The notes under the pieces: generated by a model
Database searches by the model: none
Seen by the model: only the letters and a program-made list of their open reading frames with translations
What the model was told of the DNA's origin: nothing
DNA from: Candidatus Woesearchaeota archaeon
Lineage (GTDB): Archaea > Nanobdellota > Nanobdellia > Woesearchaeales > GW2011-AR4
Direction: 5' to 3'
Assembly (NCBI GenBank): GCA_016784105.1
Contig: JADHVG010000007.1
Coordinates: 1-37,160 of the forward strand
DNA length: 37,160 nt
Part shown: piece by piece, positions 18,954 through 34,423 of the stretch
Numbering within the stretch: position 1 is the stretch's first letter
Layout of the letters: each line of letters opens with the position of its first letter
Position numbers and translations under genes: made by a program

Positions 18954-19151
18954 AAAAATTCCCCCAAAATATTAATCCAAAAAATCATATTCTCTCTAAA
19001 GTCCCGATTTTGGAATATACTTTGGAGTATATACTCACTATTTAAAGGTTTCTAAAAAAAATAAAAACCCGTCGGGAAAACAATAAAAATAACACAATAT
19101 AAAAAAAACTTTTCAACAAAACTTATAAAACAAATTACTTTCACTTCTTCA

Positions 19152-31392: not shown

Positions 31393-32604
31393 ATGCAACT
31401 CCCAAAATACGATTCTAAAAATCATCCATTATTCAATTGCGGAGATGTTAATTGTGCGATATGTGCAAAGGCTTATTCTCAAATGAAACTGAAGAAAAAG
31501 GAAGTGAAAGAAAATTTTAGTTCAGAAATGGTTGCGCCTTTTGTAGGCAGGTACAACTATCCAAACTTAAACCTTGGGATGATGGCACCTCCTGAAGAGA
31601 CGGAAGATGCGTGGTTGTATGATGCACCAAAATATTGGGCTTATGAACGCATGCAAATACCAAAAATTATTGAGTTTAGAAGTTCATTGATAAATTCTAG
31701 AACAAACTTGAACATAAAAAAAAGAGACAGGTTTTTGTTTCTGAATCAAGAAGCATCACTGGCAAGCGCTCCAGTAGATGTTGACATTTCTCTCAAAAAG
31801 AAACCCAGCTTCAGGATGAACTATGACAATTACATGGCTCCTACTGGGATGCTGGCAGAACTAAAAAGAGCGAAATTAACAGAAAATGCACAAATACATA
31901 CCAAAGTCCAGAAAGTGCATTATGATGATGACCTTAAGGCATCGGATGCCCTCACCTACCTTTATGACAATAAATTTGATGAAAACTTTCTTTCTCGAAT
32001 ATTGAGCGTAGGTACATTAGGAATTGGCAAAGATCGAAAATTAGTACCCACAAGATGGAGCATAACAGCAACGGATGATACTCTGGGAAAACATCTAATG
32101 AATAAAGTAAAAAAACACAATGAAATAAATTACAAAGCATTCTTCGGAGGCTACTTAGGAAATTACTATCTTGTCCTGTGTTTTCCAAATGTATGGAACT
32201 ATGAATTATTTGAGATGAGTGTTGCAAATCCTTCATACTATAAAACAGACCACGAATCTTATTCAGGAAGAAAAAATTACGCTTCTAATACCTCCGGAGG
32301 ATATTACACCGTAAAACTAGCAATCTTAGAAAAATTAAACCAGCTTAAAAGACAAGGAAGCTGCATAGCCTTAAGGTTCATAACGGGAGATTATACGTTA
32401 CCCTTAGGAGTATGGGTTACTAGAGAAGCAACAAGAAAAGCTTTAGAAGGTACCGGAATAGAATTTTCCTCAAAAGAACTCATGCTTGAATATGCAAATA
32501 AACTTGTAAAAAGAAAATTTGGATGTGGAATAGAACTATACCTCAAGGATAGCAAATTACTTAGAGAAATAAACAATCAATCAAAATTAAGTAAGTTTAT
32601 TTAG
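31393..32604 (+). CDS. nreA: NreA-like archaeal DNA repair protein
   Basis: N-terminal CGDVNCAICAK zinc motif; PFVGRYNYPNLNLGMMAPPEE typical of Nre family. Confidence 0.82.
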   Translation: MQLPKYDSKNHPLFNCGDVNCAICAKAYSQMKLKKKEVKENFSSEMVAPFVGRYNYPNLNLGMMAPPEETEDAWLYDAPKYWAYERMQIPKIIEFRSSLINSRTNLNIKKRDRFLFLNQEASLASAPVDVDISLKKKPSFRMNYDNYMAPTGMLAELKRAKLTENAQIHTKVQKVHYDDDLKASDALTYLYDNKFDENFLSRILSVGTLGIGKDRKLVPTRWSITATDDTLGKHLMNKVKKHNEINYKAFFGGYLGNYYLVLCFPNVWNYELFEMSVANPSYYKTDHESYSGRKNYASNTSGGYYTVKLAILEKLNQLKRQGSCIALRFITGDYTLPLGVWVTREATRKALEGTGIEFSSKELMLEYANKLVKRKFGCGIELYLKDSKLLREINNQSKLSKFI

Positions 32605-32609
32605 AAATG

Positions 32610-32617
32610 TTTAAATA
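32610..32617 (+). promoter_or_regulatory. TATA box of the leu leader
   Basis: TTTAAATA centred about 26 nt before the ATG at 32640, consistent with a leaderless transcript. Confidence 0.6.
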
Positions 32618-32639
32618 GAATATAAAGAAACTAAGTTGT

Positions 32640-32711
32640 ATGGCTAACACAAATAAAATAAATTCTTTGAACTTGTTAGCTCTAAATCTCTTACTTCTGC
32701 TGCGGTTATAA
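32640..32711 (+). CDS. Putative leucine-rich leader peptide MANTNKINSLNLLALNLLLLLRL
   Basis: ATG GCT AAC ACA AAT AAA ATA AAT TCT TTG AAC TTG TTA GCT CTA AAT CTC TTA CTT CTG CTG CGG TTA TAA; 10/23 Leu, located directly upstream of a LeuA-family gene. Confidence 0.75.
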   Translation: MANTNKINSLNLLALNLLLLLRL

Positions 32712-32780
32712 GGTCCAAACATTTTGGCATATTCTGCAAGGACCTTTCATCGTTTTAAAAAAAAAAATTCTAGAGTATGC
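32710..32780 (+). promoter_or_regulatory. Alternative RNA structures (candidate attenuator)
   Basis: Stem AAGGTCC(32710-32716)/GGACCTT(32740-32746) versus GCATATTCT(32727-32735)/AGAGTATGC(32772-32780). Confidence 0.55.
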
Positions 32781-32812
32781 TATAAACTAAACATGATGAG
32801 GAAATAAAAAAA

Positions 32813-34423
32813 ATGGAACATCAAAGAGATAAAAACCAAGTGTATATTTTTGATACCACCAACAGAGATGGTGAACAAGCAACAGAAGGAGCAAAACATG
32901 GGATACCTTCTAAACTAGAAATAGTTGCCGCACTTGAAAATGCACACGTTGATAGAATAGAAGCAGGATTCCCCATATCATCAGACCAAGATTTTGAAGC
33001 TGTCCAAAGCATTGCACAAAGTTCCAGAGAATCAATGATATTCGGTTTAGCAAGAGTCCCTATAGAAAAAACAGGAAAAATAATATATGATGATATTGAT
33101 ACTGCATTTGGCGCAGTTAGAGATGCTAACTTTAGAGGGATACACACATTTTCTGTTAATTTTGATGATTCAAGTCTTGAGCACTACGGATATTCCAGAG
33201 AAGAAGTCTTACAAGGAGCTGTTAGAGGGGTTGCTCATGCCAGGAAACTTTTAGGAGACCAAGGTCAGGTGGAATTTTCTTTTCAATGTGCAACAATAGC
33301 TCCTCTTGATGAAGTTGTTAAAGGATACCTAACAGTAATTGAAGCAGGAGCTAACGTAATCAATGTTCCAGATACTATTGGATACAGCCATCCAGATGAA
33401 ATAAGCTTGTTAATAACAACTTTAAGAAGAGAAGTCCCTGAAGATGTTATGATAAGCATACACTGTCACAACGATCTAGGTCTTGCGGTAGCAAATTCTT
33501 TAGCAGCAGTAAAAGCTGGAGCAGATATTATAGAATGTACTGTCAACGGAATAGGAGAAAGAGCAGGAAACGCTGCTTTAGAAGAAGTAGTGATGAACAT
33601 CAAAACCCGACCAGATTTGTTTGGAGGAAGAACTGTGGGAGTAGATACTTCCAAACTTAATGAGCTAAGTGCATTAGTGAGTCATCACTATGAAATGCCA
33701 GTGCAACAAAATAAAGCCATCGTTGGAGAAAATGCATTTAGACACAGATCAGGAATCCATCAAGATGGGATGATTAAAGGAGGAAGATATGAAATAATGA
33801 ATCCTGAAGAAGTTGGATGGTCCGGAGAAGGATACAGTTTAACTGCAAGATCAGGATATGCAGGAGTAGGACTAAGGCTTAGAAGATTAGGCTATAATAT
33901 TTCTGATGAGGATGTAAAAAAAATCATAATGCCTAATTTCAAGAACTTGGCAGATGAAAAAAGAAGTATAGGAGATACAGATCTAGTCTACCTTATGGAC
34001 TCTCGAAACACAGAACAAGATTACCGCTTAGAGTTTGTTGATTTAGGATCTGTTTCCAAGATTGAAGGTTCTGAAGATTATTTTGCATCGGTCGTTATTA
34101 ATGTAGATGGAAACGAAATGTCTTCAAAAGATGTATCTGGAAACGGAAAACACCATGAAGGATCTATTGATGCAATCTTTAGTGCTATAGACCAAGTAGT
34201 TGATAGGAGGGAAGGACTTCATCTAGTTCATTACGACCCCATAAATCTAGGAACTGGGAGAGAGGCTATAGCAGAAGTGACAGTCATATTAAGTGAGAAT
34301 GAAAAGTTTGATGGAAAAATAAGACCCTTTAAAGGGATGTATGTCGGAATAGGAACACATCAAGACACACTAAGAGCTTCTGCAATGGCGTATGTTGATG
34401 CTCTGAACAAAGCAATGAAATAG
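32813..34423 (+). CDS. leuA: 2-isopropylmalate synthase family protein (LeuA-like; citramalate or homocitrate synthase not excluded)
   Basis: FDTTNRDGEQATEG, HCHNDLGLAVANSLAAVKAGADIIECTVNGIGERAGNAALEEV, AFRHRSGIHQDG; C-terminal allosteric-type domain. Confidence 0.87.
   Translation: MEHQRDKNQVYIFDTTNRDGEQATEGAKHGIPSKLEIVAALENAHVDRIEAGFPISSDQDFEAVQSIAQSSRESMIFGLARVPIEKTGKIIYDDIDTAFGAVRDANFRGIHTFSVNFDDSSLEHYGYSREEVLQGAVRGVAHARKLLGDQGQVEFSFQCATIAPLDEVVKGYLTVIEAGANVINVPDTIGYSHPDEISLLITTLRREVPEDVMISIHCHNDLGLAVANSLAAVKAGADIIECTVNGIGERAGNAALEEVVMNIKTRPDLFGGRTVGVDTSKLNELSALVSHHYEMPVQQNKAIVGENAFRHRSGIHQDGMIKGGRYEIMNPEEVGWSGEGYSLTARSGYAGVGLRLRRLGYNISDEDVKKIIMPNFKNLADEKRSIGDTDLVYLMDSRNTEQDYRLEFVDLGSVSKIEGSEDYFASVVINVDGNEMSSKDVSGNGKHHEGSIDAIFSAIDQVVDRREGLHLVHYDPINLGTGREAIAEVTVILSENEKFDGKIRPFKGMYVGIGTHQDTLRASAMAYVDALNKAMK

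Follow-up and report, generated by a model that had tools for sequence, protein, structure and literature searches.

A leucine-rich leader peptide and interleaved RNA stems upstream of leuA point to amino-acid-specific attenuation in DPANN archaea

Introduction

In bacteria, ribosome-mediated attenuation is textbook knowledge: in the enterobacterial leu, ilvGMEDA and ilvB leaders, for example, RNA structure follows a short ORF containing a series of codons for the product amino acid. The actinobacterial LEU element, found before leuA, likewise consists of a Leu-run ORF with a candidate pseudoknot, and its Leu codons pair with the leuA Shine-Dalgarno (SD) sequence; mutation of these codons did not, however, give classical attenuation behaviour (PMC1262725), a result that also counts against an attenuator reading of the comparable archaeal element described below. 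In Corynebacterium glutamicum, the ilvBNC attenuator has a leaderless leader with Ile, Val and Leu codons, the transcript of which starts one nucleotide from the start codon, and a bacterial three-hairpin transcription-terminator model applies (PMC11857589). For archaea, coupling of transcription and translation has been described (French et al. 2007, cited in PMC7858274). Our literature search, which left most subscription journals and all preprints outside its scope, found no archaeal ribosome-mediated attenuation.

The element described here lies upstream of leuA in a 37,160-nucleotide stretch of archaeal DNA, which is hereafter called the window. It resembles the bacterial leu and ilv attenuators in that RNA structure follows a short ORF rich in codons for the product, Leu-only leaders precede leu genes and mixed Leu/Val/Ile leaders precede ilv genes, but differs from them in its TATA promoter, its apparently leaderless leader, the lack of a clear U-run terminator, the interleaving of its stems without shared bases and the absence of a match in Rfam. 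With the LEU element it has in common the Leu-run ORF and the candidate pseudoknot upstream of leuA. In contrast to that element, where the Leu codons pair with the SD sequence, the first archaeal stem (stem A) has its start at the stop codon of the leader (LEU element: PMC1262725), and the residue enriched in the archaeal leader changes with the pathway. The leaderless position of the leader is shared with C. glutamicum ilvBNC, whereas the three-hairpin terminator model of that system is not (PMC11857589).

We regard it as highly likely that the archaeal element is an amino-acid-specific attenuator acting via its leader peptide, with ribosome stalling and regulation inferred in the absence of expression or ribosome data. 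This reading is based on an ORF in leaderless position behind a TATA box, selection on that ORF as coding sequence, codons matched to the downstream pathway and two covarying stems after the stop codon.

Results and discussion

The window corresponds to contig C65 of genome G000, the sole representative of its genus among the compared genomes, and its genes are archaeal, including NreA, an archaeal AlaRS and an archaeal-type SMC. A first-pass annotation of the same DNA had proposed a Leu-rich leader peptide behind a TATA-like box at this locus, and both features were confirmed (Table 1). The 23 codons of the ORF include ten for Leu, five of them consecutive, with all six Leu codons in use, and the TATA box, 30 nt 5' of the ATG, would set the transcript start at or beside that codon. 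Placement of the box was conserved, with a match of at least 7/8 positions between -37 and -26 relative to the leader ATG in 41 of 44 relatives (peak at -29 to -32), compared to a mean of 9.8 and a maximum of 17 in the shuffled control, and the RNA start is therefore predicted to fall on the leader ATG.

Table 1. Positions of the leader, RNA stems and flanking signals at the leuA locus of the window
Feature	Position	Strand	Basis
Archaeal TATA box TTTAAATA	32610..32617	+	Sequence; spacing in relatives
Leu leader peptide gene, product MANTNKINSLNLLALNLLLLLRL, probably leaderless	32640..32711	+	Leaders of relatives; synonymous bias
Stem A, AAGGTCC (32710-32716) with GGACCTT (32740-32746), overlapping the leader stop codon	32710..32746	+	Shuffles; compensatory variants
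Stem B, TGGCATATTCTG (32725-32736) with TAGAGTATGCTA (32771-32782), 12 bp including G-U	32725..32782	+	Covariation; model R1
CATCGTT, conserved CAT[TC][GC]T motif just 3' of stem A	32748..32754	+	13/43 loci versus 2.0 (maximum 6) in shuffles
Probable Shine-Dalgarno sequence GAGG of leuA	32798..32801	+	Sequence; paired in one predicted fold of the locus
leuA, 2-isopropylmalate synthase family (HMGL-like, HCS_D2, LeuA_dimer)	32813..34423	+	Domain matches

Elsewhere in the archaeal order and class to which the window belongs, similar short leaders were present 5' of leuA and cimA genes. The closest homologue of its LeuA (61% identity, from a different family of the order) is preceded by MAETKLSGSSSLSLTATGLLLLLLLL approximately 100 nt before the gene, again with a TATA box upstream, and a scan of archaeal LeuA-family loci revealed such ORFs in most of them. 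When a fixed criterion was applied (ATG start, 15-40 codons, end 20-200 nt upstream of the gene, nine or more Leu, Ile or Val among the 14 C-terminal residues), leaders were detected in 38 of 60 LeuA/CimA-family loci, compared to a mean of 0.17 and a maximum of 2 in dinucleotide shuffles, while none of 315 unrelated control genes from the same genomes had a leader meeting it. The 60 loci include HMGL paralogues, where no leader is expected; no convincing leader was seen at ten of these (L062-L067, L070, L073, L076 and L078), nor at L048, L054 and L043. Trp leaders were also sought before TrpE-like genes, and none were found. The first-pass proposal would have been refuted had orthologous loci lacked a Leu-rich ORF or had the ORF shown no conservation at the codon level and the stems no covariation, and it withstood both checks: the orthologues do have the ORF, the stems covary as described below, and in an aligned block of 16 related leaders 75% of the codon differences were synonymous, compared to an expectation of 31% if single changes were random. 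The varied use of Leu codons noticed in the original reading also proved to be conserved (TTG TTA GCN CTA ... CTA TTG CTT CTG CTG). Selection on the leader ORF as a coding sequence is thereby supported, with translation itself being inferred from this bias and the leaderless promoter spacing, as no Ribo-seq data are available.

Variants of this arrangement were observed at individual loci. At L017 (contig G021:C74) the attenuator is duplicated in tandem, part of the Leu run included, and at L060 two Leu-rich ORFs occur in succession upstream of one leuA-like gene. Short ORFs ending in CIHCH, CLHCE, CIHHR or CIHHQEQ precede HisG-like genes at L087, L090, L091, L093 and L094 and are possible His leaders; at L090, L091 and L094, inspection by eye placed a gene resembling tRNA-His and containing an intron-like insert between the short ORF and the HisG-like gene.

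The composition of the leaders followed the biosynthetic pathway of the downstream genes. Behind Ile-rich leaders, the best NCBIfam match was citramalate synthase in nine of nine tested genes (TIGR00977; NF042433 for L074), and behind Leu or Leu/Val leaders it was 2-isopropylmalate synthase in 11 of 11. Furthermore, at least two Val residues were found among the last 14 leader residues in all 13 operons with ilvB downstream of leuA, compared to none of ten operons without it (Fisher 9e-7). Two criteria for membership among ribosome-mediated attenuators are thus fulfilled, namely an upstream ORF that is short and rich in codons for the product, and correspondence between regulatory codons and pathway product, the latter for Leu with 2-isopropylmalate synthase, Ile with citramalate synthase and Leu plus Val with ilvB operons. 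Such a three-way match is what codon-reading regulation would predict, and it is hard to explain otherwise. The Leu-tRNA-dependent stalling put forward in the first-pass annotation is supported chiefly by this tracking of the pathway, the regulation itself being inferred and not measured.

The hairpin proposed to follow the leader was likewise recovered as stem A. In all but two of 44 loci it starts no more than 8 nt from the leader stop codon (the outliers being at +12 and +30), and over the 44 loci it outperformed shuffles with a Fisher p of about 1e-21, a combined value that is inflated by the kinship of the sequences, which are not independent. Compensatory variants of the stem occurred among loci matched by the covariance model R1 introduced below (GGUCC:GGACC, GACCC:GGGUC and GGCUCC:GGAGCC). 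With stem A near the stop codon, a further criterion, that of a conserved RNA structure placed where it could sense the ribosome, was also fulfilled. For the window alone the evidence is modest, 7 of 200 shuffles of 32700-32760 folding as well as the native sequence, and the case consequently rests on the cross-genome comparison.

The alternative pairing proposed to compete with this hairpin is present as stem B, with 12 bp instead of 9 bp, but the supposed conflict did not hold up, since the two stems have no nucleotides in common. Stem B joins the loop of stem A to the RNA before leuA and gives the pair an H-type pseudoknot geometry, so that both stems may coexist as a pseudoknot instead of excluding one another. 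The classical criterion, that two pairings exclude each other by competing for a common segment, is therefore not fulfilled by the interleaved stems, and we class the element as working like a classical two-state attenuator, not as being one.

Both stems covaried, as the original proposal required. The structure comparison used alignment A2 together with hand-aligned arms. In alignment A2, 94.4% of the stem B cells paired, compared to 30-55% when the arms were slid, and in 11 loci of the window's family the outer positions paired in 45 of 55 cells, compared to 35 with permuted 3' arms (p 5e-5). Across 30 loci in alignment A3, which was fitted to model R1, 28 double-changed cells were counted versus 9.3 in shuffles. 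R1 was built from nine loci, describes stem B only, begins at the leader stop codon and contains no leader sequence. It matched 29 places in 23 of the 36 genomes of the window's family, nine of these places being the building set, and directly upstream of each of the 20 matches outside that set lay an ORF rich in Leu or Ile that ended at the model edge. The window, which belongs to the building set, was matched at 32709-32782 with 55.2 bits; a weak match at 18997-19036 (15.7 bits, E 0.57) was taken as chance. When 353 genomes of the order were searched, matches outside the family at E 0.001 were confined to two genomes, both with Leu leaders (MKIAKDAESGYAVSLGLLLLLL in G103 and MANKRSSSNSEFILLVLSLLLL in G325), and most leader loci of other families gave no match to R1. 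Stem B thus characterizes the window's family and a small number of others rather than the order as a whole; loci of other families keep the leader and stem A, and a significant stem B is mostly absent from them. Searches against Rfam, with its bacterial amino-acid leader and T-box families, gave nothing for 32600-32830 up to E=1 and nothing at eight related leader loci, with only a tRNA found in the whole window.

The pseudoknot-like geometry and the conserved motif 3' of stem A would also fit an RNA site at which a regulatory protein or metabolite binds, with the leader ORF a mere vehicle or remnant, and the actinobacterial LEU element is a proposed precedent (PMC1262725). We consider this improbable. 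A binding site does not require leader residues that switch between Leu, Leu plus Val and Ile with the operon, nor does it need conserved synonymous codons, and the retention of leader and stem A, mostly without a significant stem B, in other families also speaks against it.

If the element is an attenuator, plentiful charged Leu-tRNA would allow the ribosome to complete the leader and depart, after which stem A, together with stem B in the window's family, would fold and leuA would be turned down. With uncharged Leu-tRNA, the ribosome would instead stall in the terminal Leu run, where its footprint is of a size taken to mask the 5' arm of stem A, so that the stem would be blocked and leuA switched on; stalling at Ile or Val codons would likewise keep stem A unformed and switch the gene on. 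The off state could be a transcription stop or a translation block, and both outputs are possible if it varies by lineage. The first-pass annotation had left room for either, and neither a terminator nor an SD-sequestering element could be demonstrated as a general output across the loci, a gap that counts against the attenuator reading. No clean U-run terminator follows stem A, U being moderately enriched (0.47-0.56 at +6 to +11) in an interrupted stretch. Sequestration of the SD sequence or start codon as a general off state found no support, either in a test of pairing between the region after stem A and the SD sequence (Fisher 0.88) or in accessibility (0.59 versus 0.61). One predicted fold of the window's RNA does pair the GAGG of leuA.

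At some loci at the class level (L061, L059, L057 and L069), stem A ends only 1-13 nt from the start codon. This closeness, like the conserved terminal Leu runs, could be accommodated by nascent-peptide arrest or simple translational coupling, in which the leader ribosome affects leuA without any sensing of tRNA charging; arrest peptides, however, require specific side chains, while here Leu, Ile and Leu/Val interchange by operon, leaving this explanation with very little probability. Equally little can be said for the ORF being a small hydrophobic membrane protein with a function of its own, as its hydrophobic tail and synonymous conservation might suggest, since its composition tracks the biosynthetic pathway rather than a protein fold, the N-terminal halves of the leaders diverge freely from family to family and stem A stays linked to the stop codon.

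Besides leuA and cimA, many of the genes behind places matched by R1 encode small proteins of 85-170 residues. Four of these (L160, L178, L166 and L169) are standalone LeuA_dimer domains, whereas five others tested gave no Pfam match. The four appear as standalone LeuA allosteric proteins of about 120-135 residues with the same leader and RNA element upstream. In G004:C67, two attenuators (L166 and L179) are situated approximately 600 bases apart, one being nearly Leu-only and the other containing Val and Ile (LSVVVIILVLLL).

A separate observation concerns the pathway itself. No aconitase-family (LeuC) protein was detectable in G000 (the window's genome), G006, G027, G270 or G325, and all five have a Leu leader at leuA (loci L001, L019, L025, L030 and L050). 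Because leuA is thus apparently under Leu control in the absence of LeuC, the LeuA of these genomes, the window's included, may have a role outside the usual leucine pathway, a point that weighs against the attenuator reading.

Conclusions

To judge from comparative sequence evidence, these DPANN archaea very probably use an attenuation logic known from bacteria. A wider picture, which we favour with considerably less certainty, is that archaeal attenuation has its own pseudoknot-based switch and is DPANN-wide for Leu, Ile and Leu/Val, with an additional small-protein regulon that includes the standalone, leucine-binding LeuA_dimer domains. The unknown small proteins behind the element are probably leucine-responsive. 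If attenuation is confirmed, it would show how archaea with reduced genomes might use the ribosome itself as their amino-acid sensor, and archaeal transcription-translation coupling would become directly testable.
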